A stretch of DNA of 40,408 nucleotides from Bacteroidales bacterium (GTDB lineage: Bacteria; Bacteroidota; Bacteroidia; Bacteroidales; P3): the NCBI GenBank assembly GCA_017439185.1, contig JAFRTM010000009.1:1-40408 (forward strand), written 5' to 3'. Below are positions 275-39,615 of the stretch, one piece after another (position 1 is the first letter of the stretch; each line of letters begins with the position of its first letter). A program made the translations under genes and the position numbers. The notes below the pieces were generated by a model. It did no database searches, was not told the DNA's origin, and worked only from the letters and a program-made list of their open reading frames with translations.

Positions 275-373
275 TTAAAGGTCCATTAATACTTCATTAA
301 TGGTTGATTCGACATTGGTTAAGGGTAAAGCAAGGGTAAATTCGATATTCATTAAGGTGAGATTAAGGTGGCA
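275..373. repeat. 11-bp degenerate tandem repeat array, 9 units
   Basis: Nine consecutive 11-base units can be laid end to end without a gap. Six begin with TTAA (275, 286, 297, 319, 352, 363), two begin with TTCG (308, 341) and one reads GCAAGGGTAAA (330). The unit TTCGACATTGG at 308 is identical to a unit at 32332, and TTAATGGTTGA at 297 differs by one base from TTAATGGTTGG at 39561, so this is a dispersed family and not a chance low-complexity run. The TAA triplets at 276, 287 and 298 fall in three different reading frames; since TTAA is its own complement, the first three units block all six frames. Confidence 0.8.
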
Positions 374-376
374 TTT

Positions 377-451
377 TGCTTTTGGCAAAGCAAGACGTTT
401 CCTTTACTCGGCATACAAACAAGTTTGTATGCTCTCGTTTTTCGGAAACGT
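377..451 (+). repeat. Two-hairpin repeat element, copy A
   Basis: A 75-bp stretch folds into two hairpins. The first has arms TGCTTT (377-382) and AAAGCA (387-392). The second has an outer stem ACGTTTCC (395-402) with GGAAACGT (444-451), enclosing an inner perfect stem GCATACAAAC (411-420) with GTTTGTATGC (423-432). Copy B at 39410-39484 has the same length and layout with mostly different bases. The element lies inside an 11-bp repeat array. It could be a REP-like mobile palindrome or a structured RNA; the sequence does not decide. Confidence 0.6.
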
Positions 452-483
452 TAAGGTGAGGTCCTACTTTGGATAAAGATAGG
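451..483. repeat. 11-bp repeat array, 3 further units after the hairpin element
   Basis: Three 11-base units follow the hairpin element: TTAAGGTGAGG at 451, TCCTACTTTGG at 462 and ATAAAGATAGG at 473. The first differs by one base from the unit at 352. The start at 451 is exactly 8 x 11 bases after the unit at 363, so the phase is kept across the element. Confidence 0.6.
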
Positions 484-687
484 CGTTGGGGCTGAAATGT
501 TAAATATTGGGAAGGTGTGTTAAAATTCCGCTGAGTTGGGGCGTTTTGGGGACTATATAGTAGGGATCGTGAAAAAAATTTATGGCGTGTGTAATATTTT
601 TGAAAGTTTTTGCGTCTAATGGTTTGTTAAAGTAATAATTTTTGAGTTTTTTTGTTATATAATATAACTGTATAGCACGGCAGGCTG

Positions 688-1176
688 ATGGATTCGATAG
701 AGAAATTGGAGAGATACAATGATTTCATGGGGCGTTTTTCGCGTCACGTGGAGAATTATTGTATAGACCACAGCGGGAGCCGAGAGGAGGCTTTGGATTT
801 GATGCAGGAGGTGAGGATGCGTATTTGGACGAGTCTGGATGGTTTTGAGGGGAGGAGTGGCGGAGAGGAGAACAACTGGCTGAAGATGGTGATGCGGTCG
901 GCGGTGACAGACTTCTACAGGAGAGACCGGCATGTGGATACGGTAAGGATAGAGAGTGTGGAGGTTGCGGCGGAGGAAGACTGCTGGGCGGAACTGAGGG
1001 ATATGCTGCAGTGGCTGGAGGTGGCGGAGCGGGAGCTGGTGGAGGAGCGGCTGAGCGGACTTTCGTCGGAGGAGATGGGGCAGAGGCATGGTATTACGGC
1101 TAACAATGTGAATCAAAAAATGTTTAGGATTATCAAAAAATTAAAGGAGATATATGAAAAATACTATGGAGAATGA
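688..1176 (+). CDS. ECF-type RNA polymerase sigma factor
   Basis: A 162-residue protein with the layout of an extracytoplasmic-function sigma factor, which directs RNA polymerase to a small set of promoters. Residues about 10-55 form the region-2 part, including the acidic helix with EEALDLMQEVRMRIW. Residues about 105-160 form region 4, a helix-turn-helix around SSEEMGQRHGITANNVNQK followed by a basic helix. The length is usual for the family. The ATG at 688 gives a full region 2. The stop overlaps the next gene by 23 bases, suggesting translational coupling with a membrane protein that could be its anti-sigma factor. There is no TonB-dependent receptor or FecR-type gene nearby, so this is not the usual Bacteroidetes nutrient-uptake module. 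Confidence 0.85.
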   Translation: MDSIEKLERYNDFMGRFSRHVENYCIDHSGSREEALDLMQEVRMRIWTSLDGFEGRSGGEENNWLKMVMRSAVTDFYRRDRHVDTVRIESVEVAAEEDCWAELRDMLQWLEVAERELVEERLSGLSSEEMGQRHGITANNVNQKMFRIIKKLKEIYEKYYGE

Positions 1177-1522
1177 GAAACGAGAACTGAAGACGGAGAT
1201 TGGCCTGCTGGAGAGGCTGACGGTGGACAGTGCGATGGAGGCGGAGTTGAGGCAACGATGGAAGAAGAGACGGCTGTGGACAGCGGCGAGACATTACCTG
1301 TGTGCCGGAGCGGTGACTGCGGTGGTTACGGTGGGAGTGGTGCTGCTGATTCCGGAGAGGCGGACGGAGGTGCCCATGATTCAGACTACCGGAGCAGTGG
1401 CGAAGGCTAAAGAGGTGGCAGAATGCGGCTATGAGTGCGCCACGGCAAAGGTCTTTAATACCGTTTATGGAAAATGCAGGGGGGGGCAAATTATTAACAA
1501 TCAGATAGTTAATAATAAATAA
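1154..1522 (+). CDS. Small single-pass membrane protein, candidate anti-sigma factor
   Basis: A 122-residue protein I do not recognise as a named family. It has a charged N-terminal part (about residues 1-45, rich in Glu, Lys and Arg), one hydrophobic segment near residues 48-66, and a short C-terminal part. This topology (cytoplasmic N-terminus, one membrane helix) and the 23-base overlap with the sigma gene are what one expects of an anti-sigma factor, but no zinc-binding or FecR motif is visible. The tail after the membrane segment has three cysteines. The function is an inference from position and topology only. The next gene starts 3 bases after its stop. Confidence 0.6.
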   Translation: MKNTMENEKRELKTEIGLLERLTVDSAMEAELRQRWKKRRLWTAARHYLCAGAVTAVVTVGVVLLIPERRTEVPMIQTTGAVAKAKEVAECGYECATAKVFNTVYGKCRGGQIINNQIVNNK

Positions 1523-1525
1523 CAA

Positions 1526-2092
1526 ATGAATAGCAGAACCAAAGTACTTGTAACACGGTGGGTGGTAACCGTGGTGATGGGATTGGCGGTGGTCGGCATT
1601 GCCGCTACGTGCAAGATTAACAAAGAAAAGAACGTAGAGCCGGAGACGAGCGAGATATACAAGCTGTTTGCCGGGAGGGAGGATTTGCGGGTGACGTTTC
1701 TGAAGGACGAGGAGATTGCCGAGGGGTTGAGTTCTGACGTAACGATCATAGAAGCTTTTGACTCGGCGACATTCCGGAAGTTTATGATAGATGACCTCAA
1801 ATGGAGCGAGGAGAGTTTCCATCTGTGGGATTCGCTGGGTGACGGCCAGAATAGGATAGGCGTTTGCTCATTCAAACGAGGGAATCCTGCCGAAGATCAG
1901 ACGAACCGGGACGGAGAAGACGATATGGCTATAGTGGAGTTTAACGATATGTACGTCTGCGTGTTTCACACGAAGAGCGTGGCAGACGCGAGCAAAATTA
2001 TGGAGATAAAGTTTTACGAGCACTTCTCGTATGTGCCCGACCGCGACAAAGAGCCGGAGGGACTGGGAGTGGAGACGGTAATTCAAGACTGA
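1526..2092 (+). CDS. Membrane-anchored or secreted protein of unknown function, third gene of the sigma operon
   Basis: A 188-residue protein. Residues about 10-29 form one hydrophobic segment that ends in GIAATC; this could be a membrane anchor or a poor lipoprotein signal (Thr before Cys is unusual for a lipobox). The rest is acidic and looks soluble and globular, with alternating beta-like and helical stretches, so it probably lies outside the inner membrane. I do not recognise a family. It follows the candidate anti-sigma gene by 3 bases and is probably part of the same transcript. It ends 9 bases before the convergent stop of radA. Confidence 0.6.
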   Translation: MNSRTKVLVTRWVVTVVMGLAVVGIAATCKINKEKNVEPETSEIYKLFAGREDLRVTFLKDEEIAEGLSSDVTIIEAFDSATFRKFMIDDLKWSEESFHLWDSLGDGQNRIGVCSFKRGNPAEDQTNRDGEDDMAIVEFNDMYVCVFHTKSVADASKIMEIKFYEHFSYVPDRDKEPEGLGVETVIQD

Positions 2093-2101
2093 CTTGGAGC
2101 G

Positions 2102-3469
2102 TCAGGCGAAGAGTTTGCGGAAGGCGTCTTCGATGACGGCGACCTCTACGATGTCGATGGCGTATTTCTTCTTGTCAAGGCCTTTGGTGTTATAACGGCT
2201 GACGAAGATCTTCTCGAAGCCGAGACGAGCCGCTTCGGCGATACGCTGTTCGACACGCGAGACGGGACGAATCTCGCCATTGAGGCCCATCTCGGCAGCG
2301 AGGCAGACGGTAGGCGGTATGGGGATATCGACATTGCTGGAGAGGATGGAGCAAGCCACGGCGAGGTCGATGGCCGGATCGTTGACGCGGATGCCGCCGG
2401 CGATGTTGAGGAAAACGTCCTTGGCGCCCAGTTTGAAGCCGCAACGTTTCTCGAGTACGGCGAGGAGCATGCTGAGACGACGGAAGTCGAAACCGTTGGC
2501 GTTACGCTGCGGAGTGCCATAGACGGCGGAGGAGACGAGCGACTGAACTTCGATGAATATAGGCCTGGCCCCTTCTAGAGTGGCCGATATGGCAGCGCCG
2601 CTGAGGTTTTCGTCGCGCTGGGAGAGGAGGATTTCTGACGGGTTGGGGACTTCCCGAAGCCCGCTGTTCTGCATCTCGAAGATGCCGAGCTCAGCGGTGG
2701 AGCCGAAACGGTTTTTGAGAGCACGGAGGATACGGAAGCCATAATTGCGGTCGCCTTCGAACTGGAGGACAGCGTCGACGATATGTTCCATCACCTTGGG
2801 TCCTGCGAGGGTACCGTCCTTGGTGATATGGCCGATGAGGAGCACGGGAGTGCCGCTGAGTTTGGCATAACGCTGGAACTCGGTGGTGCACTCGCGGATT
2901 TGCGATATGCTGCCGGCAGAAGAGTCGATGTCCTCGGAGTTGATAGTCTGGATGGAGTCCACGATGAGGATGTCGGGCTTTACCGCCTCGATATGCTGGA
3001 ATATGCGATTGGTAGAAGTTTCGGAGACCACGTACATCTCGCCCTGAGGAGAGCCTATGCGGTCGGCACGCATCTTGATCTGCTGCTCGCTTTCCTCACC
3101 GCTGACATAGAGGAGACGCTTGTCCTTGATGGAGAGGGCAGTCTGAAGAAGGAGGGTGGACTTTCCGATGCCCGGCTCGCCACCGAGGAGGATGAGGCTA
3201 CCCGGCACGATGCCGCCGCCGAGGACACGGTCGAACTCGTCGCAGTGGGTGCTCATACGGACCGTCTCGTCGTAGGTCACCTCCTCGATACGCTTAGGTT
3301 CGGAGAGAGAGAGACCCTGCTGCTTGGCAGACTTGGCCGAGGAGGTGGCAGCCTGGACCACTTCCTCGTCGAAAGTGTTCCATTTTCCACACTCGGGACA
3401 ACGACCGAGCCAAGAACTGCTCTGGTAGCCACACTCGCGGCAGAAGAAATATTTTTTAGCTTTAGCCAT
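2102..3469 (-). CDS. radA: DNA repair protein RadA (Sms)
   Basis: RadA is a RecA-like ATPase that helps branch migration and processing of recombination intermediates. At 455 residues it has the usual length. An N-terminal zinc finger has C10, C13, C24 and C27. The Walker A motif GEPGIGKS is at 97-104, and the Walker B-like strand ILIVDSIQT is at about 167-175. The RadA-specific KNRFG motif is at 252-256. A C-terminal Lon-protease-like domain occupies roughly the last 170 residues. The start at 3469 places the zinc finger at the N-terminus as in other RadA proteins. A near-perfect Bacteroidetes promoter lies upstream (3526-3556, minus strand). The gene converges on the sigma operon with only 9 bases between them. 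Confidence 0.97.
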   Translation of the reverse strand: MAKAKKYFFCRECGYQSSSWLGRCPECGKWNTFDEEVVQAATSSAKSAKQQGLSLSEPKRIEEVTYDETVRMSTHCDEFDRVLGGGIVPGSLILLGGEPGIGKSTLLLQTALSIKDKRLLYVSGEESEQQIKMRADRIGSPQGEMYVVSETSTNRIFQHIEAVKPDILIVDSIQTINSEDIDSSAGSISQIRECTTEFQRYAKLSGTPVLLIGHITKDGTLAGPKVMEHIVDAVLQFEGDRNYGFRILRALKNRFGSTAELGIFEMQNSGLREVPNPSEILLSQRDENLSGAAISATLEGARPIFIEVQSLVSSAVYGTPQRNANGFDFRRLSMLLAVLEKRCGFKLGAKDVFLNIAGGIRVNDPAIDLAVACSILSSNVDIPIPPTVCLAAEMGLNGEIRPVSRVEQRIAEAARLGFEKIFVSRYNTKGLDKKKYAIDIVEVAVIEDAFRKLFA

Positions 3470-3525
3470 AGTAATTACGTGATATATAAGCGAGACCGAA
3501 ATCCCGAATCAGAAGTTTCGAAATG

Positions 3526-3556
3526 CAAAATTACAACTTTTTTTCATTTCTCCAAA
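3526..3556 (-). promoter_or_regulatory. Bacteroidetes-type promoter for radA
   Basis: Read on the minus strand, the -7 box TAATTTTG (3526-3533) is preceded by TTTG (3553-3556) with exactly 19 bases between, which matches the Bacteroidetes consensus TTTG-N19-TAnnTTTG. It lies 57 bases upstream of the radA start. Confidence 0.75.
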
Positions 3557-3585
3557 GAATTTTCTATGTTTCGCAAAAAAATGTG

Positions 3586-3593
3586 TATCTTTG
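3586..3593 (+). promoter_or_regulatory. Bacteroidetes -7 promoter box for the GT39 gene
   Basis: TATCTTTG fits TAnnTTTG exactly. No good -33 partner is seen at the usual distance. It diverges from the radA promoter about 50 bases away. It covers the possible TTG start at 3591, which argues that translation begins later, at 3609 or 3615, on a short leader. Confidence 0.55.
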
Positions 3594-3608
3594 CAAAGTG
3601 AAAAGAGA

Positions 3609-5357
3609 ATGCCCATGCAGCGCAAAAGACCTATCCATAACATATTAGCGAAGATGCCGGCCGACGGCCTGGTGGCAATAATGCTCGTGGTGTGGTGGCT
3701 GCTGAACATGGTGGCGGGAGGAGTGGTGGAGCTGGCCAACGACGAAGCCTACTATTGGTGGTGGGCGACCGGAAGCGGATTGGACTGGGGCTACTACGAC
3801 CACCCGCCGATGGTGGCGTGGCTGATATGGCTTGGGGCATGGATACCGGGCGAGATAGGAGTGAGAGCCGTGGTGAGCCTGCTGCAGCCCGTGGGACTCT
3901 TTCTGCTGTGGAAGATGTTTGTGGGAGAATACCCGGAGAGCAACAACCGGAAGGCGGCTCTGCTGTTTGTTCTGGCAAGCTTTGCCATGCCATTGCTGCA
4001 ACTGTATGGACTATTGGCGTTGCCCGACGCACCATTGCTGTTCGGGACGGTGGTATTCCTGTGGGCCATACGGAGGATGTGGAGGAGAGGCGACGTGGCC
4101 AGTGCGGTGATGACCGGAGCGGCGACGGCACTGATAGGCTACAGCAAATACCAGGGCATAATCCTTGTGGTTACCGCAGGCATAGTATATATAGTGGCCG
4201 CCTGGCAGAACGGAAACAGATGGAAACGGACAGCTATGCTCATTACAATATGGATTGTGAGCGCGGCAGTATTGTATGCTCCCCATCTGATATGGCTGTG
4301 GAAGCACGACTGGGCTCCGTTGCGATACCATCTGGCAGAGCGTGCCACAGAAGAATACCGGTTTGCGTTCACACTGGAATACCTGGTGGGGCTACTGCTA
4401 CTGTTCTACCCGCTAATGATGTGGTTTGAGGCGAAAGGGCTGGCGAAAGGAGACAAGAGAAGTTTCGTGTCGAGGCTGATGCGGTGGACCGTGGCGGGAT
4501 ATGTGGCGTTCTTCTTCGTGGCGAGTTTCAAGGGGAGGACTCAGCCGCAGTGGGTGCTACCCGCGGTGATAGGCGTCGTGTGGCTTGTGATGGAACATGT
4601 GGCAAGAGCCAAGAGCAAGAAAGCGGTGACGATACTGGCAGTGCTGTCGGCAGTGCTGATGCTGACGGCGAGAGTGCTGGTGATGTTCAACCCCATGGGG
4701 TGGTCGGGAGAGCTGTGGGGCAACAAAGAACATTACACAGAAGTGGGACAAGTAGCCAAAGGCCGGCCCGTGATATATTTGCGAGACTATACCAGCTCGT
4801 GCAAATACCTGTTCTACACCGGAGGCGAAGCCTGCACCTTGCCGCTATATTTCGACCGGGACAGCCAATGGCAATACGCCGATGCAGACAAGGAGTGGAG
4901 AGGAAAAGACGTGTTGCTGATAGTGCCCGAGTGGTACAGCGCGGCGAAGCAAGAGTTGGCAGACGGGTCAGAAATCACCTATTGGGAAGTAACGGACTAT
5001 GTGCCGACAAGACGTATGGCCATAGAGGTGAAAGAGGCATGGACCGAGGGGCAAATGCTCAAAACCCGCCTGAAAATCACAAACCCCTATCCTTATGCCA
5101 TAGCAGGTTATAACGATAGATGGACACGAGTGAGGCTGTCATTCCGCCTGTCACAGAAAGAGCAACCGCATTTTGAGGCGGAGCTGAAAGAAAGCATCGG
5201 AGCTGGAGAAACCAAAGAGTTGGTATGCCAGTTTAACATCGGAGAGCTTGCGGAGAATATTGCAGACAAGCCAGCCGAGATGGGTTTGGAAATAGACGGA
5301 ATGCCAATCTGCAGCAATAGAGCGCATAGCCGGCTGCCACTCAAGATAGCGAAATAA
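3609..5357 (+). CDS. GT39/ArnT-like membrane glycosyltransferase
   Basis: An integral membrane protein of the glycosyltransferase 39 / ArnT-PMT superfamily, which moves sugars from polyprenyl-phosphate carriers to lipids or proteins on the outer face of the inner membrane. About 582 residues from this start. The family's first-loop acidic pair is seen as NDEAYYW (D45, E46), followed by GYYDHPPM at about 61-68, typical of the ArnT/dolichyl-phosphate-mannose branch. About ten hydrophobic segments fill residues 20-365; a soluble C-terminal domain follows. ATG codons at 3609 and 3615 are both possible; a TTG at 3591 lies inside the -7 promoter box and is unlikely. The acceptor cannot be read from the sequence. 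It converges on the next gene (16 bases between stops). Confidence 0.85.
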   Translation: MPMQRKRPIHNILAKMPADGLVAIMLVVWWLLNMVAGGVVELANDEAYYWWWATGSGLDWGYYDHPPMVAWLIWLGAWIPGEIGVRAVVSLLQPVGLFLLWKMFVGEYPESNNRKAALLFVLASFAMPLLQLYGLLALPDAPLLFGTVVFLWAIRRMWRRGDVASAVMTGAATALIGYSKYQGIILVVTAGIVYIVAAWQNGNRWKRTAMLITIWIVSAAVLYAPHLIWLWKHDWAPLRYHLAERATEEYRFAFTLEYLVGLLLLFYPLMMWFEAKGLAKGDKRSFVSRLMRWTVAGYVAFFFVASFKGRTQPQWVLPAVIGVVWLVMEHVARAKSKKAVTILAVLSAVLMLTARVLVMFNPMGWSGELWGNKEHYTEVGQVAKGRPVIYLRDYTSSCKYLFYTGGEACTLPLYFDRDSQWQYADADKEWRGKDVLLIVPEWYSAAKQELADGSEITYWEVTDYVPTRRMAIEVKEAWTEGQMLKTRLKITNPYPYAIAGYNDRWTRVRLSFRLSQKEQPHFEAELKESIGAGETKELVCQFNIGELAENIADKPAEMGLEIDGMPICSNRAHSRLPLKIAK

Positions 5358-5373
5358 AAAGATTAGATTACCC

Positions 5374-6648: not shown

Positions 6649-6658
6649 CGGGAAAAGA

Positions 6659-7576: not shown

Positions 7577-7578
7577 TT

Positions 7579-8334: not shown

Positions 8335-8463
8335 AATAATAAATTTTATACAATAAGATAACGGCAAAAGAGAATTATTATTGTAGGAGGAATGGTAAAA
8401 TATGTTAAATTTAGTGGTCAGTGGCCGGCAACTGGACAATGGCAAATTATCACTAAAATTCAC

Positions 8464-8518
8464 TATAGACTTAACATAGAGTTGATACCTAGTTGTATCC
8501 TAGTTGTCAACTAGTTAG
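8464..8518. repeat. 11-bp degenerate tandem repeat array, 5 units
   Basis: Five 11-base units start at 8464, 8475, 8486, 8497 and 8508. The two middle units (TACCTAGTTGT and ATCCTAGTTGT) differ at two positions, and CTAGTT recurs in the fifth. The CCTA core also appears in the arrays at 17981 and 23653 and, as its complement TAGG, in the array at 39495. Confidence 0.75.
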
Positions 8519-8683
8519 CATTTTCCAAAAATAGCCCTCCCGTCAAAAAATCATCAAAAAAAGTCCACTTCTGCAATACCCTTAATAATCAGTTACATAC
8601 CTCAGATTTTAACATTCTATCCCCACAAGTGGCTACTGGATGCTCGAGGTAGTGTACCTTCGGCACACAAATAGAGTGAGACA

Positions 8684-8719
8684 AGTAACCCCACACACCG
8701 ATCGGTGTGTGGGGTTACT
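8684..8719. repeat. Perfect 36-base palindrome
   Basis: The left half reads AGTAACCCCACACACCGA and the right half (8702-8719) is its exact reverse complement, with no loop bases. It can form a very stable RNA hairpin or act as a symmetric DNA site. It lies 48 bases downstream of the speA stop and is flanked by two smaller hairpins. There is no T-run after it in the speA direction, so a simple intrinsic terminator is not certain. Confidence 0.8.
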
Positions 8720-8725
8720 AAGATG

Positions 8726-8742
8726 GTGTGCCTCCGGCACAC
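8726..8742. repeat. Small perfect hairpin next to the 36-base palindrome
   Basis: Arms GTGTGCC and GGCACAC with a TCC loop. A near copy (arms GTGTACC and GGCACAC, loop TTC) lies on the other side of the large palindrome at 8652-8668, so the three hairpins form a symmetric group. Confidence 0.65.
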
Positions 8743-8766
8743 GTGGTTATCTATCAAATCACGTAA

Positions 8767-10167: not shown

Positions 10168-10230
10168 TTCTCCAATCCAATTAAGTTAGTTTATATTTTT
10201 TTATACAATCCGACTTAGTTAAATCGGTTG

Positions 10231-10338: not shown

Positions 10339-10364
10339 ATTTATCAATTAATTAACTTACAACC

Positions 10365-16843: not shown

Positions 16844-16874
16844 ATTTTTTTTATCTTTTTATCTTCGTTGCAAA

Positions 16875-16929
16875 CATTAATCAACCATTAACCAAATATT
16901 AACCAACCTTTAATCAAATATTAATCCAC
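16875..16929. repeat. 11-bp degenerate tandem repeat array, 5 units
   Basis: Five 11-base units start at 16875, 16886, 16897, 16908 and 16919, for example CATTAACCAAA and TATTAACCAAC. Each carries TTAA at its third base (16877, 16888, 16899, 16910, 16921), so the stops in TTAA fall in all frames of both strands. Read on the minus strand the units (TTGATTAATG, TTTGGTTAATG) match the style of the arrays at 275 and 39495. The array fills the gap between tsaE and rsfS, the border of two likely transcripts. Confidence 0.8.
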
Positions 16930-16934
16930 CCCTG

Positions 16935-17375
16935 TCATAATTTCACCAGCCACGACTCCAAAAACCGTTCCCCGTTCTCCTCCCTCAATTCCACCCTCAC
17001 ATACCTCTCCGGCAGCAGCCCCTCCACCTTCTCCGTCCACTCCGTAAAGCAATACTCGCCCGAGTAGAAATACTCCTCATAACCGATATCGTATGCCTCC
17101 TCCTCGTTCTTCAGCCGGTAAAAATCAAAATGATATATCGGCCGTCCCTCTCCCGTGGCATACTCGTTCACTATCGCAAACGTAGGACTGCACACCACAT
17201 CCTCCGAACCCAACTCCTCGCACATCTCCTTTATCAGCGTCGTCTTCCCCACTCCCATCTTGCCGAAGAACGCAAAGAAACGCTCCTCGCCATAACTGCA
17301 CAGCAACTCCCGGGCCACCTCCCTCAATTCCTCCAGATGCCCGATTCTTGCACTATATGTCTTCTCTTCAGTCAT
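16935..17375 (-). CDS. tsaE: tRNA threonylcarbamoyladenosine ATPase TsaE
   Basis: A 146-residue P-loop ATPase that works with TsaB and TsaD to make t6A at position 37 of ANN-reading tRNAs. The Walker A motif GKMGVGKT is at 38-45, and the family-typical SPTFAIVNEY and YHFDFYRL stretches follow. The length is usual. It begins 6 bases after the DUF4293 stop and ends the minus-strand cluster. Its stop lies 6 bases from an 11-bp repeat array. Confidence 0.95.
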   Translation of the reverse strand: MTEEKTYSARIGHLEELREVARELLCSYGEERFFAFFGKMGVGKTTLIKEMCEELGSEDVVCSPTFAIVNEYATGEGRPIYHFDFYRLKNEEEAYDIGYEEYFYSGEYCFTEWTEKVEGLLPERYVRVELREENGERFLESWLVKL

Positions 17376-17945: not shown

Positions 17946-17980
17946 GTTTCTATAATTTTTTACTGTTATTTTTCTCGAAC

Positions 17981-18013
17981 TTGCCTCCTAGTTGCCTCCT
18001 ATATGCCTCCTAC
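17981..18013. repeat. 11-bp tandem repeat array, 3 nearly identical units, covering a stop codon
   Basis: Units TTGCCTCCTAG (17981), TTGCCTCCTAT (17992) and ATGCCTCCTAC (18003) are the least degenerate in the window. Each contains CTA, which is TAG on the minus strand, at 17988, 17999 and 18010; these fall in three frames. The one at 18010-18012 is the actual stop codon of the BT_3928-family gene, so the gene ends inside the array and any read-through would meet further stops. Confidence 0.8.
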
Positions 18014-23598: not shown

Positions 23599-23652
23599 AG
23601 TTAAGTGATAGCCTCCAAATTTTTCTCGACTTTACCCTTACTTTATGTCGAA

Positions 23653-23696
23653 TCAAAGTCCTATCAACCTCCTATGGACTACCTATCAACCTCCGG
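23653..23696. repeat. 11-bp degenerate tandem repeat array, 4 units, overlapping a gene end
   Basis: Units start at 23653, 23664, 23675 and 23686. Examples are TCAACCTCCTA (23664) and TGGACTACCTA (23675). Units 1-3 end in CCTA, giving TAG on the minus strand in three frames. The stop codon of the ComF-family gene (23686-23688) is the first triplet of unit 4, so the last codons of the gene are made of repeat sequence. Confidence 0.75.
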
Positions 23697-24387
23697 CGTA
23701 TGCCAGCGAGGCCACACTCACCTTTACCCCCTCTATCCCTTTCAACGCCTCCGCACACGCCACCACCGTCGCCCCCGTGGTAATCACATCGTCAAACAGC
23801 AGTACATGCTTCCCTTTCAGCCGCTCCCCATGCCTCGCCCCGAACGAACCCTCTATATTCTTATGCCGCTCGCCGTGACCCTTCCTCGCCTGCGCCATCG
23901 TATAGTATTTCCGGTACAGCACACCCGTCTCCACCTTCTTGCCCAACTCCTCTGCCACTCCTTTCCCCAATATAAAGCTCTGATTGTAACCCCTTTGCAA
24001 GAATTTTACAAAATGTAGAGGCACCGGAACCACCACATCCACTCCTTCAAACCTCCCCGATTCTCTCAACTCCCTCCCTATCACCCTCCCCATGGAACGC
24101 CCGAAACGCTCGTTGCCGTAATATTTTATGTCGTGCACTATATGCTGCGACACATCTCCCTTCCTGAAAAACATATACGCAGCAGCCGACTCACATGCAA
24201 TCAGCTGTTTAAGTCTCAATTCAAGATCGTTACCCTCCACATCCGCCTGCCCGGTCGGACGCACCTTCTTCAGGCAGTCATAGCATATATCATGCTCTCC
24301 TGCAATCAGTTGCCTCCCACAGGCACAACAATGTGGTGCCAGAAGCACATACATCAAGTCTTTTATCGGACTAAATCCACCCATCAC
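23686..24387 (-). CDS. ComF-family protein (phosphoribosyltransferase-like)
   Basis: A 233-residue protein like ComFC, which in transformable bacteria helps with DNA uptake. The N-terminus has a zinc-finger-like set of cysteines (C20, C23, C35, C38). The C-terminal PRTase domain has the PRPP-binding motif FDDVITTGAT at 198-207. Many non-transformable Bacteroidetes also carry it, and no other competence gene is in this window, so the role is open. Its start overlaps the queA stop by 4 bases (ATGA type). Its last codons lie in an 11-bp repeat unit. Confidence 0.88.
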   Translation of the reverse strand: MMGGFSPIKDLMYVLLAPHCCACGRQLIAGEHDICYDCLKKVRPTGQADVEGNDLELRLKQLIACESAAAYMFFRKGDVSQHIVHDIKYYGNERFGRSMGRVIGRELRESGRFEGVDVVVPVPLHFVKFLQRGYNQSFILGKGVAEELGKKVETGVLYRKYYTMAQARKGHGERHKNIEGSFGARHGERLKGKHVLLFDDVITTGATVVACAEALKGIEGVKVSVASLAYAGG

Positions 24388-31302: not shown

Positions 31303-31306
31303 ACAA

Positions 31307-32029: not shown

Positions 32030-32287
32030 AGGAGTAACCGTTTTGTATAAAATAACGGAAAAGAGGCGTTTTTATTGCCATAAGACTAAAAAAAACTCAT
32101 AATAGGCGATAAACAACTCTCAATCAATGGACTATGTCCGATTTAGAATTGCGAGAGCAAGACGACACAAAGTTGAGACAGAGAAAAACGGGTCAAAATG
32201 TTAAAATTAAAGATACACCACTGATTTACAACAAAATACCATCTTTGAGGCAGGTCCAGAAATTGCAAAACACTAAGTAATTGTAGA

Positions 32288-32353
32288 TTAATGGCTTATA
32301 GGTATCAACTCTATGTCAACTCTATGGTTGGTTCGACATTGGTTCAGGTTTGA
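32288..32353. repeat. 11-bp degenerate tandem repeat array, 6 units
   Basis: Units start at 32288, 32299, 32310, 32321, 32332 and 32343. TTCGACATTGG at 32332 is identical to the unit at 308; TAGG, TTAA and CTATG words recur. The array lies midway in the divergent region between the nucleotidyltransferase and rfbA. Confidence 0.75.
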
Positions 32354-32492
32354 AAAAGGGGAGAAAAATGAGAGGGTCGGATTGGGAGTTTTTGAGAAAT
32401 ACGGGAGGGTAAAAATTAGAAGTTTTTAGAGGAAGATTTGAAAGTTTTTATAAATAAATCGTTGTAAAAAGTGTGGAAAGAAGAAAAAGTTG

Positions 32493-32500
32493 TATATTTG
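32493..32500 (+). promoter_or_regulatory. Bacteroidetes -7 promoter box for the rfb operon
   Basis: TATATTTG fits TAnnTTTG. The -33 element is not clear. The leader to rfbA is about 95 bases and ends in a good ribosome site (AAAGGAG at 32590-32596). Confidence 0.5.
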
Positions 32501-32602
32501 CAGATTGTAACTATTGGTTGCGGGGCATGGAGATTCAGAGATAAACAGTTGTATCTATGAACGTTGTCCGCAAACAAACGGAAATAAAAAAAGGAGAAAA
32601 CA

Positions 32603-33484
32603 ATGAAAGGAATAGTCTTGGCCGGAGGATCCGGCACCCGTCTCTACCCGATCACGAAAGGAGTGAGCAAGCAGTTGCTGCCCATCTACGACAAGCCGAT
32701 GGTGTATTACCCGTTGTCGGTGCTTATGATAGCCGGCATCCGCGACATCCTGCTGATCTCGACGCCCGACGACCTGCCCGGGTTCAAGAGGCTGTTGGGA
32801 GACGGTAAAGACTTTGGAATCAACCTTTCATACGCCGAGCAGCCGTCGCCCGACGGACTGGCGCAGGCGTTCATCATAGGAGAGGAATTTGTGGGAGACG
32901 ATGCCGTGTGTCTGGTGCTGGGAGACAATATTTTCCAAGGAAACGGACTCGGGGCGCTGATGCGCGACGCGGTGAGGGCGGCGGAAGAAGAGAAGAAAGC
33001 GACAGTGTTCGGCTATTGGGTTGCCGACCCCGAGAGGTACGGAGTCGCCGAGTTCGACAAAGAAGGCAACGTGCTGTCGATAGAAGAGAAGCCCAAAGAG
33101 CCCAAGAGCAACTATGCCGTGGTGGGACTCTATTTCTACCCCAACAAGGTGGTGAAGATAGCCAAAAGCATAAAGCCGTCGGCCCGCGGAGAGCTGGAAA
33201 TCACGAGCGTGAACCAGCAGTTTCTGGAAGACAAAGAGCTGAAAGTAAAACTGTTGGGCAGAGGATTTGCCTGGCTCGACACAGGGACACACGACTCCCT
33301 TGCCGAGGCCTCGACCTTTATAGAAGTGATAGAGAAGAGGCAAGGGCTGAAAGTGGCGTGCCTGGAGAGCATAGCCTACGAGAAAGGCTGGATAGGCGAC
33401 GACGACATCAGGAGAGTTGCCGAGCCGATGAAGAAGAACCAGTATGGACAATATCTGCTAAATCTGATAAATCACAAGCAATGA
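32603..33484 (+). CDS. rfbA: Glucose-1-phosphate thymidylyltransferase RfbA
   Basis: First step of dTDP-L-rhamnose synthesis: dTTP plus glucose-1-phosphate to dTDP-glucose. At 293 residues it has the normal length. The motif [20 protein letters not shown] near the N-terminus and VLGDNIF near residue 110 are diagnostic. The start is preceded by AAAGGAG. The stop overlaps the rfbC start (ATGA), so the two are translationally coupled. Confidence 0.97.
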
Positions 33485-34041
33485 GCGTAATACGCACAGA
33501 CATAGAGGGTGTTCTGATAATCGAGCCGAAAGTGTTCGGCGACGCGAGAGGCTACTTCTTCGAGAGTTTCAACGGAGAGCGATTTGCCGAAGAGACCGGA
33601 GTGGCGACCACGTTTGTGCAAGACAACGAGTCGAGGTCCAGTTACGGAGTGGTAAGAGGGCTACATTTCCAGAAGCCGCCCTTTGCCCAAGGGAAGCTGG
33701 TAAGATGTGTGGTCGGAGAGGTGATCGACGTGGCGGTGGATATAAGGGAAGGGAGTGCGACCTACGGAAAGTGGGTAGGAGTGCGGCTGAGCGAGAGCAA
33801 CCACCGGCAGTTGTGGCTGCCCAAAGGCATGGCCCACGGCTTTGCCGTGCTGACGCAAGAGGCTGTGTTCCAATATAAATGTGACGAATATTACCATCCC
33901 GAGGCCGAAGGAGCCCTGGCATGGGACGACCCGACAATCGGAATCGACTGGCTGGTGCCGAGCGAGAAAGTGGTGCTTTCGGAGAAAGACAGCCACCATC
34001 CGAGGCTAAAAGACTTTGTAACACCGTTCAAGAAGCTATGA
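33481..34041 (+). CDS. rfbC: dTDP-4-dehydrorhamnose 3,5-epimerase RfbC
   Basis: Third enzyme of dTDP-rhamnose synthesis. From the ATG at 33481 it has 186 residues, the usual size. The cupin-type core has the catalytic His62 in RGLHFQ and Tyr132 near QYKCDEYY. The reading frame is open far upstream (to 32908), but that part runs over rfbA in another frame; this start overlaps the rfbA stop by ATGA. The stop overlaps rfbD in the same way. Confidence 0.96.
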
Positions 34042-34922
34042 ACAATAGAATCAACATATTAGTGACAGGATCCAACGGTCAGTTGGGGCGACATATAGCC
34101 TGGCTGGCGTCGGGGTCGAGCGACAACTACATGTTTGCCGACATCGAAGAGCTGGACATCACCGACAAGAGAGCAGTAGATAGATATGTTGCTGACAACA
34201 AGATTGATGTGATCATAAACTGTGCCGCCTACACCAATGTCGATCAAGCCGAAGACAACGAAGCCGACGCGATGCACATAAACGCCACGGCCGTAGGTTA
34301 CCTAGCTGATTCCATGAAAAATAACGGTGGAACACTCATACATATCTCGACCGATTATGTGTTCGGCGGCGAGAGGCACAACACCCCGATAGCAGAAGAT
34401 GCCGAACCCAATCCCCGTGGAGCCTACGGTAGGACGAAGCTCGCCGGAGAGAAGCAGGTGATTGCCTCCGGATGTAAATACTTGATAATAAGGACCGCGT
34501 GGCTATATAGCGAATATGGCAAGAACTTTGTGAAGACCATGATGGCCCTCACCGGCAGCCGCGAAGAGGTGAGAGTGGTAGAAGACCAGGTAGGCTCGCC
34601 CACTTACGCCGGAGACCTCGCCAGCGCGATATTCGAGATAGTGGAAGAGAGGAAATATGCCGACAACCAAGGCATTTACCATTATACAAACGAAGGAGTG
34701 TGCAGCTGGTACGATTTCGCGATGGAGATAAAGCAGATGGCCGGCAACGAAAGATGCAGAGTGACCCCCTGCCGCAGCGCAGAATACCCGAGCAAGGTGG
34801 AGCGGCCCTCCTATTCGGTGCTGGACAAGAGCAAATGCAAGCAGACCTTCAAGATAGAGATACCCTACTGGAAAGAGAGTCTGGAGAAGTGTATAAAAAA
34901 CATAAAGAGCAGCGACCAATGA
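34038..34922 (+). CDS. rfbD: dTDP-4-dehydrorhamnose reductase RfbD
   Basis: Last step of dTDP-L-rhamnose synthesis. A 294-residue short-chain dehydrogenase-fold protein. The nucleotide-binding GSNGQLG is at 11-17; STDYVFGG and the YGRTKLAGE active-site tyrosine and lysine follow. The start at 34038 overlaps the rfbC stop (ATGA) and the stop overlaps rfbB the same way. Confidence 0.95.
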   Translation: MNNRINILVTGSNGQLGRHIAWLASGSSDNYMFADIEELDITDKRAVDRYVADNKIDVIINCAAYTNVDQAEDNEADAMHINATAVGYLADSMKNNGGTLIHISTDYVFGGERHNTPIAEDAEPNPRGAYGRTKLAGEKQVIASGCKYLIIRTAWLYSEYGKNFVKTMMALTGSREEVRVVEDQVGSPTYAGDLASAIFEIVEERKYADNQGIYHYTNEGVCSWYDFAMEIKQMAGNERCRVTPCRSAEYPSKVERPSYSVLDKSKCKQTFKIEIPYWKESLEKCIKNIKSSDQ

Positions 34923-36025
34923 AGAAAAGCATCATAATAACCGGAGGAGCCGGATTCATAGGCAGCCATATAGTGCGGCTGATGGTGAAGAAATATCCCG
35001 ACTACAAAATCATCAACCTCGACAAGCTGACCTACGCCGGGAACCTGGAAAACCTCAAAGACATAGAGGGGGCCAGCAATTACAGCTTTGCGAAAATGGA
35101 CATCTGCGATTTCGAAGGAGTCCTCGAGCTGATGAAGAGAGAGGAAGTCAACGGAGTGATACACCTGGCCGCCGAAAGCCACGTAGATAGAAGTATCAAA
35201 GACCCCTTCGCCTTTGCGCAGACCAACGTGATGGGTACGCTGAGCCTGCTACAGGCGGCACGCCTCTATTGGGAGAGCCTGCCCGAGAAGTACGAAGGGA
35301 AGCGGTTTTACCATATCTCGACCGACGAGGTTTATGGAGCCTTGCAGTTAGACAATCCCGCCGGGAAAGACGGGAAAGGTCCCTACGGCACCGAGTTTTT
35401 CACAGAAAACACCCGTTATCAGCCCCATAGTCCCTATTCCGCCGCCAAGGCGAGCAGCGACCACTTCGTGAGAGCCTTCCACGACACCTACGGAATGCCG
35501 ACCATAGTGACCAACTGCTCGAACAACTACGGCCCCTACCAGTTCCCCGAGAAACTGATACCGCTGTTTATCAACAATATACGTAAAAGGAAGCCGTTGC
35601 CTGTATATGGCAAAGGAGAGAACGTGAGAGACTGGCTGTATGTGGAAGACCATGCGGCGGCGATAGACCTGATATTCCACCAAGGGAAAGCCGGCGAGAC
35701 GTACAACATAGGCGGCTTCAACGAGTGGAAGAACATAGACATAGTGAAAACCCTGATAAAGACAGTAGATAGGCAGCTGGGGAGGAAAGAGGGAGAAGAC
35801 CTGGACCTGATAACCTACGTGGCCGACCGTGCCGGGCACGACCTGAGGTATGCCATAGACGCCAGCAAGCTGGAGAGAGAGCTGGGATGGAAGCCGAAGG
35901 TGCAGTTCGAAGAGGGAATAGAGCTGACGGTGAAATGGTATCTGGAGAACGAGAAATGGATGGACAACGTGACCAGCGGAGCCTATCAGGAATATTACGA
36001 ATCGATGTACGGCAACAGGAGATAA
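34919..36025 (+). CDS. rfbB: dTDP-glucose 4,6-dehydratase RfbB
   Basis: Second step of the dTDP-rhamnose pathway. A 368-residue extended short-chain dehydrogenase. GGAGFIGSH at 9-17 binds NAD, T135-D136-E137 carries the dehydratase acid-base pair, and Tyr173 with Lys177 form the YxxxK site. The start overlaps the rfbD stop (ATGA). The next gene begins 6 bases later. Confidence 0.97.
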   Translation: MKKSIIITGGAGFIGSHIVRLMVKKYPDYKIINLDKLTYAGNLENLKDIEGASNYSFAKMDICDFEGVLELMKREEVNGVIHLAAESHVDRSIKDPFAFAQTNVMGTLSLLQAARLYWESLPEKYEGKRFYHISTDEVYGALQLDNPAGKDGKGPYGTEFFTENTRYQPHSPYSAAKASSDHFVRAFHDTYGMPTIVTNCSNNYGPYQFPEKLIPLFINNIRKRKPLPVYGKGENVRDWLYVEDHAAAIDLIFHQGKAGETYNIGGFNEWKNIDIVKTLIKTVDRQLGRKEGEDLDLITYVADRAGHDLRYAIDASKLERELGWKPKVQFEEGIELTVKWYLENEKWMDNVTSGAYQEYYESMYGNRR

Positions 36026-36031
36026 AGAGAT

Positions 36032-37960
36032 ATGGCACAAGGACTGACACACAAGATATTTTACGCCATCGCCAAGCGTTACCGCCACTCGCCCGTGTCA
36101 CGGTGGATAGTGCTGGTAGCCGACATGATGTCGCTGGTACTGTCGTTTGCCATAGCAGCCGTGTTTGCGCTGCACGACCAGGGGTGGCAAATAGAATGGG
36201 TGCCGCTGATGACGCAGCTTTTCGGGTGTCTGACGATGACCACGATACTATTCTTCGTCACCGGGACCTATAGAGGAATCATACGCCACTCGGGGCTGTA
36301 CGACGTCTATCGCATACTGCTCTCGTGCGGGATCTCGTTTTTGATAGGGACCGCCGCCGTCTTCATCAACAACAACACCGAGCTGGTGAATCCCCGCCTG
36401 ATGCCGTCGTACACGATGCTGGCGATAACCTATATGGCGCTCGGCCTGATGATGATGATCTTCAGGATAGTGTGTCAGAGAATATATAATGAATATGTGA
36501 AGAAGCAGCTGCCCTGGCGCAACGTGGTGATTTACGGAGCCGGGAGTGCGGGGGTGATAGCCCATAACGCGCTGAAAACCGACAGCCAGTTCGAATACAG
36601 AGTGATAGCCTTTATCGACGACAACACGGCGAAGGTGAACCAGGCAATAGACGGAGTGCCGATCATGCAGGCGAAAGACGTGCTGAACGCGAAATTCATA
36701 GAGCACAAGAGAGTGAAGCAGCTGGTGATAGCCATACCCAGCCTGGACCTAAAGCAGAAGCAAAACATCATGAACAAGGCGCTGGACCTGGGGCTGACGG
36801 TGAAGTCGGTGCCGCATATCAAGTCGTGGATCAACGGCACGTTCAGTTCCAACCAGATAGAAGACATAAAGATCGAGGATTTGCTGGAGCGAGAGTCGAT
36901 AAAGCTGGACAACATGAACGTGGTGAGAGAGGTGCTGGACAAGACCATACTGGTGACAGGAGCCGCCGGAAGCATCGGGAGCGAGATTTGCCGTCAGGTG
37001 ATACAATACCATCCCAAGAGGATAGTGATGGTCGATCAGGCCGAGTCGCCGATGTACGACCTCCAGTGGGAGCTGCGCAACACCGAGCCCTACAAGCAGC
37101 ACACCGAGCAGATGGCGTTCGAGATAGCGAATATCAAAGATGCGGTGAGGATGCGCGAGATCATGGGGAGATACCGTCCCGACGTGATATACCATGCGGC
37201 GGCCTACAAGCATGTGCCGTTCATGGAAGAGAACGTTTACGAGGCTTTAGCCGTCAACGTGTTCGGCACCAAGCTGGTGGCCGACTTGGCGATAGAATAC
37301 GGAGTGCAGAAATTTGTGATGGTGAGCACCGACAAGGCCGTGAACCCCACCAATGTGATGGGAGCGAGCAAGAGGATGGCGGAGATATACATACAGAGCC
37401 GTTCGACCGAGAGCACCCATTTTGTTACCACGCGGTTCGGCAATGTGCTGGGGAGCAACGGGAGTGTGATACCCCTGTTCAAGAAGCAGCTGGCAGCCGG
37501 GGGGCCGCTGACGGTGACCCACAAAGAGATTACGCGTTACTTTATGACCATCCCCGAGGCCTGCAGCCTGGTGCTGGAAGCCGGTGCGATGGGGGAAGGA
37601 GGCGACATCTTCGTGTTCGACATGGGGCAGCCGGTGAAGATCTACGACCTAGCGGTGAAGATGATACAGCTGTCGGGGCTGCAGGGGATAGAGATCAAAG
37701 AGATAGGGCTGAGGCCGGGAGAGAAGCTGTACGAGGAGTTGCTGGCGACGAAAGAGAACACTATGCCGACCTACCATTCCAAGATTATGCGCGCGCAGGT
37801 GCGCACGTATCCATTAAATGATATAGACCGCGAATATGGGGAGCTGAGGGAGCTGATGCCGAAGATGGACGAGATGGAACTGGTGGCAAAAATGAAAGAA
37901 ATAGTGCCGGAATATGTGAGCAACAACAGTGTTTTTTGCACGCTGGACAAAAAAAATTAG
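36032..37960 (+). CDS. FlaA1/CapD/WbpM-like nucleotide-sugar 4,6-dehydratase
   Basis: A 642-residue inner-membrane protein that converts UDP-GlcNAc-type sugars at the start of surface-polysaccharide or glycan synthesis. Four membrane segments lie within the first 150 residues. A first Rossmann motif (YGAGSAG, 168-174) is followed by the catalytic domain with GAAGSIGS at 310-317 and STDKAVNPTNVMGASKRMAE, where Met replaces the usual Tyr of the YxxxK site as in WbpM. It follows rfbB by 6 bases and so belongs to the same transcript, but it is not part of rhamnose synthesis; together they point to a rhamnose-containing surface glycan. No glycosyltransferase or flippase lies next to them. Confidence 0.92.
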   Translation: MAQGLTHKIFYAIAKRYRHSPVSRWIVLVADMMSLVLSFAIAAVFALHDQGWQIEWVPLMTQLFGCLTMTTILFFVTGTYRGIIRHSGLYDVYRILLSCGISFLIGTAAVFINNNTELVNPRLMPSYTMLAITYMALGLMMMIFRIVCQRIYNEYVKKQLPWRNVVIYGAGSAGVIAHNALKTDSQFEYRVIAFIDDNTAKVNQAIDGVPIMQAKDVLNAKFIEHKRVKQLVIAIPSLDLKQKQNIMNKALDLGLTVKSVPHIKSWINGTFSSNQIEDIKIEDLLERESIKLDNMNVVREVLDKTILVTGAAGSIGSEICRQVIQYHPKRIVMVDQAESPMYDLQWELRNTEPYKQHTEQMAFEIANIKDAVRMREIMGRYRPDVIYHAAAYKHVPFMEENVYEALAVNVFGTKLVADLAIEYGVQKFVMVSTDKAVNPTNVMGASKRMAEIYIQSRSTESTHFVTTRFGNVLGSNGSVIPLFKKQLAAGGPLTVTHKEITRYFMTIPEACSLVLEAGAMGEGGDIFVFDMGQPVKIYDLAVKMIQLSGLQGIEIKEIGLRPGEKLYEELLATKENTMPTYHSKIMRAQVRTYPLNDIDREYGELRELMPKMDEMELVAKMKEIVPEYVSNNSVFCTLDKKN

Positions 37961-37978
37961 ATTTTTTTGCGGAAAGAG

Positions 37979-38000
37979 ACATCGGGCGAAATGCCGATGT
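37979..38000. repeat. Hairpin after the FlaA1-like gene
   Basis: Arms ACATCGG and CCGATGT with an 8-base loop, 19 bases after the stop. No T-run follows on the plus strand, so its role as the operon terminator is uncertain. Confidence 0.4.
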
Positions 38001-38080
38001 AGAGAGGCTTTCGAGGGGGGTCGGGTAATTTTCGGGGAAAAATAGGAAAAAATTCTGGGTTTTCCCTAAAATTATGATAG

Positions 38081-38088
38081 TACTTTTG
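38081..38088 (+). promoter_or_regulatory. Bacteroidetes -7 promoter box for the Ser-rich protein gene
   Basis: TACTTTTG fits TAnnTTTG exactly; no clear -33. It lies 53 bases before the start codon, which has a good ribosome site (AAAGGAG at 38127-38133). Confidence 0.55.
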
Positions 38089-38140
38089 TATCGAAAAAAA
38101 AGAGAAAAAGCATTAACCCCATAAAAGAAAGGAGTCAATC

Positions 38141-39325
38141 ATGAAAACGTCAAGAATTTTAGCAGTAATGGTGATGGGCATAGCCCTGTGTGTAACGCCA
38201 GTGTATGCACAACGCGGTCACGGTGGTGGCGGCGGCAGCCGAGGCGGTGGCAGTAGTTTTTCGGGAGGAAGCCGTGGGGGAAGCAGCCACTCGAGCGGAA
38301 TGTCGCGCGGATCATCCTATTCAGGGAGCAGCAGTAGCAGGAGTTACAGTTCGCCTTCGAGCAGCAGCAGTAGAAGCTACAGCTCGCCCTCGAGCAGCAG
38401 CAGGAGTTACAGTTCATCCTCGAGCAGTAGCCATCGCAGCTACAGCCCGTCAACCAGCAGCAGCCGGAGCTACAGCTCGTCGTCGAGCAGCAGTAGCAGA
38501 AGTTACAGCTCGCCTTCGGGCAGCGGCAGCAGCAGGAGTTACAGCTCGCCCTCGGCCCCGTCGAGAGGGAGCTACGGAGGAGGCAGCCATCGTCCCTCGT
38601 CGGAGATGAGAGGCAGCAGCCGTCCGACCGTCACGCGTGGCTCGGCCACCACGGGAGTGGCGCGTGGAAAATACAGCGGGACGCGGCCCCACTCGAGTGG
38701 AGTAGGCGGTCCCACGCGCGGAAATGTGGCGCCGACCCCGGCGACCCCCGGCAGCCGCGGACGCAGCGACGTAGCCAACAGGCCCGCCGGCACGATGGGA
38801 GGACCCACGACCGGAGCGAGGACAGCGCCCTACTCGCGTCCAGGCAGACCCGGCGGAGTTACGCCCCCGTCCAGCCGTCCGATGCACCCTGCACCCTACT
38901 TCCACCACCCGCACCATCACGGCATGATACACATGCGCCCGGTGATCTGGCACCCGCTGCCCCCGCGCCCACTGTTCTGGCCCGGATTCTGGTACTACTG
39001 CAACAGCTACTGGTATGACTATCATGTGACCGATGTGGTGGTGGTGAGACAATATGTGAACGACACCTACCACGTAGATATGATAGACTACGCGATGAGC
39101 GGGGACTACATGTACGCCCTGGTGAACGACAGCGACGGCAAGACCTACCTGCAAGTGTATAGCAACGAAGACAAGCTGATAGCCGAGCAGGTGGTAAACA
39201 AGAAGTACTGCAAGATGGAGATCGACCGCGAGAACGGCGGCTGCTGGATCTTCAAGAAAGGCGACAAAGACCCGCTGCTGTTCATCTACACCGGATCAGA
39301 GCTTCTGATATACGAAGCCGACTAA
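38141..39325 (+). CDS. Secreted Ser/Gly/Arg-rich repetitive protein
   Basis: A 394-residue protein. Residues 1-24 form a signal peptide (cleavage near VYAQ). Residues about 25-145 are low in complexity: a Gly/Arg-rich start, then many imperfect copies of SYSSPSSSSSR-type units. Residues about 145-245 are rich in Gly, Pro, Arg and Thr; a His/Pro/Trp-rich stretch follows (HPAPYFHHPHHHG), and the last 100 residues look like a compact beta-rich domain. The DNA repeats (about 38330-38570) are AGCAGC-type and could slip in replication. I do not recognise the family; a surface or cell-wall location and binding of metal by the His cluster are guesses. It is a single gene with its own promoter and terminator. 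Confidence 0.8.
   Translation: MKTSRILAVMVMGIALCVTPVYAQRGHGGGGGSRGGGSSFSGGSRGGSSHSSGMSRGSSYSGSSSSRSYSSPSSSSSRSYSSPSSSSRSYSSSSSSSHRSYSPSTSSSRSYSSSSSSSSRSYSSPSGSGSSRSYSSPSAPSRGSYGGGSHRPSSEMRGSSRPTVTRGSATTGVARGKYSGTRPHSSGVGGPTRGNVAPTPATPGSRGRSDVANRPAGTMGGPTTGARTAPYSRPGRPGGVTPPSSRPMHPAPYFHHPHHHGMIHMRPVIWHPLPPRPLFWPGFWYYCNSYWYDYHVTDVVVVRQYVNDTYHVDMIDYAMSGDYMYALVNDSDGKTYLQVYSNEDKLIAEQVVNKKYCKMEIDRENGGCWIFKKGDKDPLLFIYTGSELLIYEAD
38330..38570 (+). repeat. Imperfect in-frame tandem repeats coding for Ser-rich units
   Basis: Repeats of AGCAGCAGCAGGAGTTAC-type words code for SYSSPSSSSSR and variants. Length differences between units are whole codons. Such tracts can expand or shrink, which would change the length of the protein's low-complexity arm. 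Confidence 0.6.
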
Positions 39326-39358
39326 GAGAGGCAAGGGAAATCTAAATCATAGATTCGC

Positions 39359-39396
39359 GGGAGGGGAGCCGGAAGGTTCCCCTCCCTGTTTTTTTT
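39359..39396 (+). terminator. Intrinsic terminator of the Ser-rich protein gene
   Basis: A perfect 9-bp stem, GGGAGGGGA (39359-39367) with TCCCCTCCC (39378-39386), a 10-base loop, and a run of eight T after TG. It lies 33 bases past the stop codon and is the best terminator in the window. Confidence 0.9.
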
Positions 39397-39409
39397 AGTG
39401 CCTAGTAGT

Positions 39410-39484
39410 TTTCGCTTTGCGAAAGACGTTGCTTTGTCTTTGGAGAGCAAGCAAGCTTGCTTTCCTCTCAACTTCTGCAACGTC
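39410..39484 (+). repeat. Two-hairpin repeat element, copy B
   Basis: The first hairpin has arms TTTCGC (39410-39415) and GCGAAA (39419-39424). The second has an outer stem GACGTTGC (39425-39432) with GCAACGTC (39477-39484) and an inner palindrome AAGCAAGCTTGCTT (39449-39462). This is the same order, spacing and 75-bp length as copy A at 377-451. An 11-bp repeat array begins 10 bases later. Confidence 0.6.
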
Positions 39485-39494
39485 CAGTGGCTGG

Positions 39495-39615
39495 TAGGAG
39501 GCACCTAGGACACACATAGGACATTGATTCGACTTTGGTTAATATCAAGTTAAAGGTTGGTTAATGGTTGGTAGGACATAAAGTAAGGGCAAAGCAATGA
39601 TAAAGCAAGGGTAAG
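39495..39615. repeat. 11-bp degenerate tandem repeat array, 11 units
   Basis: Eleven units of 11 bases fill 121 bases exactly, starting at 39495 and repeating every 11 (39506, 39517 and so on to 39605). Units include TAGGACACACA, TTCGACTTTGG, TTAATGGTTGG and GCAAGGGTAAG. Compare TTCGACATTGG and GCAAGGGTAAA in the array at 275. This is the longest array in the window. Confidence 0.85.

Follow-up and report, generated by a model that had tools for sequence, protein, structure and literature searches.

The window analysed here, 40,408 bp that make up all of contig JAFRTM010000009.1 (C21) in a Bacteroidales bacterium assembly (GCA_017439185.1; 2.15 Mb in 28 contigs, 92% complete), carries tandem arrays of degenerate 11-bp units in the gaps between its genes (Table 1). 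The neighbouring genes include one at 688 with Sigma70 domains (Pfam) and one at 32603, which we take to be rmlA-like and which lies 216 bp downstream of the nearest array; the closest named records for its protein, in a search that may leave out records very near the window, are uncultured Bacteroidales assemblies, with a top identity of 87%. The array at 17958-18012 reaches from the stop codon of a MauE/DoxX-domain gene to within 12 bp of the start of a DUF4293 gene. A preliminary description, made from the letters alone, had divided eight stretches of the window into 46 units with words common to distant arrays, and both the division and the quoted word matches (308 with 32332, 330 with 39605, 297 with 39561) hold. 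The period it proposed is equally clear: across 12 gaps of the window, the lag-11 identity reaches 0.334, compared with 0.277 after shuffling with dinucleotides preserved (z 8.0), with lag 28 the next best among lags 3-39 (z 3.3), and no lag-11 peak was found in the coding DNA of the window.

Table 1. Arrays of 11-bp units and the associated hairpin in the window
Feature	Position	Strand	Score	Remarks
11-bp array, 9 units	275..373	+	45.4 bits	314 bp upstream of the sigma-factor gene at 688
Inserted hairpin element, two stem-loops, inside the array	374..450	+	z -5.4	Fold of 374-455 as DNA
Remnant of the 275 array past the hairpin	451..483	+		First unit TTAAGGTGAGG convincing, other two weak; not among the 71
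11-bp array, 9 units, block family	8459..8557	-	23.3 bits	TAGGACACAAG TAGGTATCAAC TCTATGGTAAG and neighbours
11-bp array, 7 units	16870..16946	-	40.4 bits	tsaE-rsfS gap (genes by Pfam)
11-bp array, 5 units	17958..18012	-	21.8 bits	Genes by Pfam
11-bp array, 8 units	23620..23707	-	32.7 bits	Overlaps the end of a phosphoribosyltransferase-domain gene (Pfam)
11-bp array, 13 units	32244..32386	+	51.6 bits	Centre matches well, ends weak
11-bp array, 14 units	39484..39637	+	66.2 bits	Longest in the window

The window and 37 further stretches together form a sample of 778,504 bp, or 36% of the genome, to which the array counts below refer. In its gaps, lags 11, 22 and 33 stand out (z 15.3, 9.6 and 6.1) beside a smaller peak at lag 7 (z 8.6); these z values and those of the relatives use a binomial error and are approximate. 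A profile iterated from the window units, with arrays called at 18 bits or more, recovered 71 arrays comprising 556 units, compared with 0.8 arrays in shuffled gaps (mean of 5) and 8 in reversed gaps. The units thus recur elsewhere in the genome as anticipated, and a dispersed 11-bp family, with words common to distant arrays, exists above chance; extrapolated by density, the genome would hold about 197 arrays and 1,540 units. Seven of the eight arrays first described are among the 71 and the stretch at 451-483 is absent from them. Six of those seven exceed the length originally given, with weak end units, and the arrays first placed at 8464, 16875, 17981 and 23653 all lie on the minus strand by the profile. 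The statement that the arrays fill intergenic gaps was too strong: they take up 5.5% of the DNA in codirectional gaps, 11% in divergent gaps and 0.8% in convergent ones, gap classes that carry error because the gene calls come from a simple codon-usage script. Several of the long gaps are probably missed genes.

The units are discrete words drawn from a small common vocabulary rather than instances of a loose profile. Among 245 words scoring at least 3 in 49 non-block arrays, 156 identical pairs connect different arrays, against 3.5 with columns shuffled. The order of the words is shared as well, with 57 two-word runs common to arrays, against 16.5 when the order is shuffled and 4.8 when the words are. 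Likeness is 0.58 between adjacent units and falls to 0.37 at five units, with 0.40 between arrays. Differing positions cluster (0.57 versus 0.31), which is consistent with short copied tracts. A block of about five units also recurs, and its 22-bp core, TAGGTATCAACTCTATGGTAAG, occurs with up to three mismatches 52 times in this genome, never in its reversed control and once in 60 relatives. Lastly, contig C17 holds a homologue of the array at 275 that is longer by at least one whole 11-bp unit (one pair, in one genome).

The period extends to several other species of the genus, with different words. In 18 same-genus genomes, with 12-100 kb sampled from each, the lag-11 z reached 6 or more in five (G012 7.8, G016 10.3, G029 8.4, G023 6.7, G024 6.1), lay between 2.3 and 4.4 in nine, and was 1.0 or less in four (G018, G333, G031, G027). 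Other lags exceeded lag 11 in some of them, namely lag 8 in G023 and G014, lag 21 in G008 and G001 and lag 24 in G027. Per 10 kb of gap, 11-bp segments number 12.6 in the genome under study, 8.7 in the genus and 3.2 in a pool of 80 Bacteroidales loci that includes some of the same genus or near it; in that pool the lag-11 signal (z 4.8) is exceeded at multiples of three, a sign of genes that were missed. In samples of 30-40 kb, a sister genus (three genomes) and two other Bacteroidales stayed below z 1. The relatives with high lag-11 signals use other words than our genome, and the search of related genomes with a profile, proposed in the preliminary description, returned 11 arrays in 127,912 bp against 12 in the reversed sequence, which is no enrichment. 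In the two genomes closest by DUF4293, G014 and G334, arrays with words of the TCTATGG kind were seen by eye.

Two probable operon gaps allow the same position to be followed across species. The tsaE-rsfS set comprises 30 loci out of 39 matching genomes, one of them lacking rsfS; a clear 11-bp array occurs in 3 of the 29 syntenic species (our genome, G004 and G024), the words of G004 and G024 differ from ours, and G022 has a weak AT-rich segment only. Gap lengths, measured up to where the protein match begins, are 45 bp or shorter in 18 of the 28 other species; the scan covered the first 193 bases downstream of tsaE, and three of the gaps are longer than 140 bp. At the MauE/DoxX-DUF4293 gap (30 loci out of 40 matching genomes, two not measurable), our genome has an array and none of the 27 measurable others does, their gaps measuring 1-183 bp. 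Three other species carry arrays of about 7-8 bp there, by eye. Since the relatives build 11-bp arrays from other words, the pattern points to repeated array birth and copying, not to one conserved control element.

We consider it about an even chance (a probability of roughly 0.5) that the arrays are intergenic minisatellites restricted to their lineage and built on an 11-bp unit, born by duplication and spread by copying between arrays. An array would arise by tandem duplication of an 11-bp stretch in a spacer, with slippage as the putative source of units, and would then lengthen or shorten by whole units. It would also acquire words or short runs of words from other arrays of the same genome, presumably by ectopic copying. 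The outcome would be a small vocabulary in each species and arrays that are mosaics of a few founder words, settled in spacers tolerant of length and probably free of any sequence-specific role. We favour this reading because the words are limited to species, the common runs are ordered, the differences are clustered, an indel of whole units is seen, element ends are lacking and the arrays are absent at conserved gaps.

A number of observations weigh against it. Eight arrays turn up even in the reversed control, and a part of the 71 may therefore be spurious. No gain or loss of units was seen directly within one species; in a close pair of relatives, G008 and G023 (88%), four intervals held no informative 11-bp array. 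Across 36 aligned copies of the recurrent block, conservation of the units exceeds that of most of the flanks, also for units that the search pattern did not cover. The chief difficulty, however, is the sharpness of the base classes. Among 140 interior units of non-block arrays, picked solely by their neighbours, the scheme reads T/G at position 1, not G at 2, free at 3, A/G at 4, not C at 5, mostly G at 6, not C at 7, T/C at 8, A/T at 9, free at 10 and not T at 11; position 1 is T or G in 99% of units, position 4 A or G in 99%, position 8 T or C in 93% and position 9 A or T in 95%, and C never occurs at position 5. Where neighbouring units differ, certain exchanges prevail: G-T in 24 of 31 at position 1 and A-T in 38 of 50 at position 5, a bias that plain mutation would produce only from a small number of founders and in young arrays; T-C makes up 29 of 38 at position 8. 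Sharp classes could come from a few founder words that spread recently, or from selection by a bound protein. Counted by array, with end units included, the class is kept in 35 of 35 at position 5, 52 of 56 at position 11, 15 of 26 at position 4 and 17 of 32 at position 9. Of the three roles first suggested, a binding platform for a nucleoid protein, a transcription barrier and a decaying selfish repeat, the selfish repeat fits best, although decay is doubtful because unit positions are kept so sharply.

The same constraint on unit positions leaves room for a protein-binding role, and we regard as possible, though clearly less probable than the minisatellite reading, a platform upstream of promoters, where copies of a protein (a regulator, an insulator or a nucleoid protein) recognise a degenerate motif of 11 bp and sit in line along one face of the DNA. 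The vocabulary would then be the set of words that the protein's binding surface accepts. Coupling of adjacent positions suits such a protein: it peaks within positions 2-4 (0.49) and 8-10 (0.37 and 0.41), is 0.22-0.26 from position 4 to 7 and 0.12 between 7 and 8, and reaches its minimum, 0.04, at the unit boundary between position 11 and the next unit's 1. A more elaborate form, which we hold to be doubtful, treats the units as a combinatorial vocabulary with three-base modules at 2-4 and 8-10, a looser middle and restricted classes at 1, 5 and 11, read once per helical turn by a fast-evolving, genus-specific protein; the preference of the protein, and hence the words, would be replaced between species while the 11-bp step stayed. 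Two findings count against the platform: most orthologous gaps examined are without arrays, and the profile is not enriched in the relatives.

Array placement speaks on both sides of the platform. Among gaps of at least 60 bp, 22 of the 43 divergent ones carry arrays, as do 38 of the 179 codirectional ones and 1 of the 28 convergent ones. A strong preference for divergent gaps, considered at first, proved mostly an effect of gap length, since among length-matched gaps of 60-900 bp divergent ones hold 20 against 16.4 expected (P 0.08), a weak enrichment. The absence from 23 convergent gaps of the same lengths, with 3.1 expected (P 0.02), favours the platform; it is not general, because convergent gaps of relatives do hold 11-bp arrays (5 of 28 in six relatives, with 14 of 49 divergent and 16 of 124 codirectional). 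The -7 box TAnnTTTG, sought 50-250 bp beyond the 71 arrays, likewise favours the array strand, with 31 occurrences against 10 on the other, an excess qualified by the tendency of the genes beyond arrays toward that strand. Orientation within codirectional gaps is mixed, with 27 arrays running with the genes and 15 against them, and 41 of 64 pairs of neighbouring arrays share a strand. Replication does not appear to set orientation, as no consistent match to regional GC skew was found by eye (C26 partly, C25 not).

The preliminary description had also noted that units one helical turn apart would present the same face of DNA. A step of 11 bp comes close to the helical pitch, yet a role for phase gains no support from curvature or from inserts: the predicted 11-bp roll component is not above that of column-permuted units, and across the hairpin element an insert of 88 bp in C21 keeps the phase whereas one of 85 bp in C17 does not. 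Same-face binding thus draws no support from the predicted curvature, from the phase, which is kept across one hairpin copy and not the other, or from the arrays and words, which are not conserved in relatives; the constraint on unit positions keeps a binding role possible. ParR/parC-type iterons, which also are 11-bp phased direct repeats, consist of near-identical units of about one helical turn at one locus beside par genes; the arrays described here are dispersed and degenerate, and neither their positions nor their words are conserved in relatives.

One block family recurs about 50 times and partly retains a 5' module, which invites another explanation, in which the arrays form the interior of an element, similar to a miniature inverted-repeat transposable element (MITE), that moves repeats between gaps. 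We judge this unlikely. Inverted 8-mers, as candidates for terminal inverted repeats, flank 18 of the 71 arrays, and swapping the flanks gives 17.7; direct repeats 5-12 bp long abut both ends, as a target-site duplication would, in just 1 of 71; and no 9-mer recurs close to more than 7 of the 71 arrays. REP/BIME families are dispersed palindromes with RAYT transposases. Our arrays resemble them as a dispersed, species-specific intergenic family, but the units are not palindromic, and a search for Y1 transposases found none in the genome (92% complete), whereas 5 of 14 control genomes have one; other transposases were not sought. A REP family with a RAYT was therefore set aside. The same holds for a MITE of the BrickBuilt type, given the lack of terminal inverted repeats and target-site duplications. 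BrickBuilt is a MITE minisatellite of Porphyromonas gingivalis with a 23-nt unit, a leader and tail with terminal inverted repeats, and 19 copies (PMC4596501). It shares with our arrays the order Bacteroidales and the intergenic tandem repeat at many loci, and differs from them in its unit, its ends and its copy number, the latter set against some 200 arrays by extrapolation here.

Least probable, in our estimate, is that the arrays work in transcripts as leader or spacer RNA. Some do sit between the stop and start codons of likely operons, and one strand is poor in C (12.5%). When four window arrays were folded as RNA on both strands, however, seven of the eight strands folded no better than shuffles and one gave z -2.0; short codirectional gaps hold both orientations, and several arrays lie upstream of a -7 box. 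An Rfam search of the window gave no match above the gathering score.

Several bacterial groups are known to have degenerate short tandem repeats in their intergenic DNA, on whose origin there is no agreement; the cyanobacterial STRR are heptamers. With short tandem units at many intergenic loci of one genome, our arrays are best read as a variant of the degenerate short intergenic tandem repeats of the STRR/LSSR kind. MacGregor 2015 (PMC4679880) describes TAACTGA heptamer arrays in Beggiatoaceae, cyanobacteria and some Bacteroidetes, reports whole-unit indels in Cyanothece and proposes slippage for heptamers. Like the TAACTGA and STRR heptamers, our arrays have short tandem units, are intergenic, occupy many loci per genome and are scattered over species. 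TAACTGA is a 7-bp unit of one sequence, whereas ours is an 11-bp unit with a vocabulary of many words, and, unlike those heptamers, our arrays are not concentrated directly before start codons. Identity with the heptamers was rejected, as period 11 dominates the gaps of our genome and lag 7 is weaker. The preliminary description knew of no such family, and our literature search, mostly outside subscription journals, likewise found no description of an 11-bp family in Bacteroidales; the nearest known kinds are the heptamers and BrickBuilt. Where several species of one genus have the period in common but not the words, step length and sequence come apart, and the possible origins of the step (polymerase slippage, helical pitch, a bound protein) can be put to the test. 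Words common to distant arrays, in turn, leave a record from which copying between chromosomal loci of a bacterium can be measured.

The first array of the window contains the hairpin element, which is missing from the corresponding place in the C17 copy; a related hairpin lies elsewhere in the C17 array. Bases 1-141 of the window are identical to the first 141 of C17, followed by close likeness through the array, and both contigs start at a common repeat. The element, TTTTGCT..AGCAAGACGTT..CTCGGCAT..GCTCTCG..AACG with varying stems, was found at 374-450 and in C24, C25, C14 and C17, and window 39408-39475 resembles it by eye. Its pattern matched 10 times in the sample of our genome; three matches are seemingly coding and seven are elements, all of which adjoin 11-bp or 7-bp arrays by eye. 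In G008, two of three matches are elements, within 7-bp arrays. The exact pattern, too strict to gauge spread, matched one copy, our own, in 198 genomes.

Palindromes were noted in the relatives. In G012, G016 and G029 the 11-bp units also form palindromes, by eye, and in G029 (L216-L220) recurrent palindromes of the form [GATTGTTCTTC]n loop [GAAGAACAATC]n occur in several gaps, one of which folds with 47 base pairs; a scan of six relatives reported four palindromes and missed imperfect ones. In G031 (L236-L240), gaps peak at lags 9, 18 and 27 in place of 11, which may reflect missed coding DNA. At L295, L302 and L303, and in gaps of our genome such as that beside C25:61350, degenerate arrays of about 7-8 bp (TCAGTGG, AATTGAG and CCACTAA kinds) were seen by eye in gaps of the same type. 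No Pfam match at E 0.001 was found for the gene at 38141-39325, which contains 33/63-bp tandem repeats at 38326-38554. A motif ACTGATWATCA with TGTTAAAAT lies about 100 bp before block arrays (window 8557-8620, minus strand) and is partly kept among the copies. Arrays of the TAGGAGGC kind (17958-18012; C24:47432) start at TAG, which in the window is the stop codon of the preceding gene.

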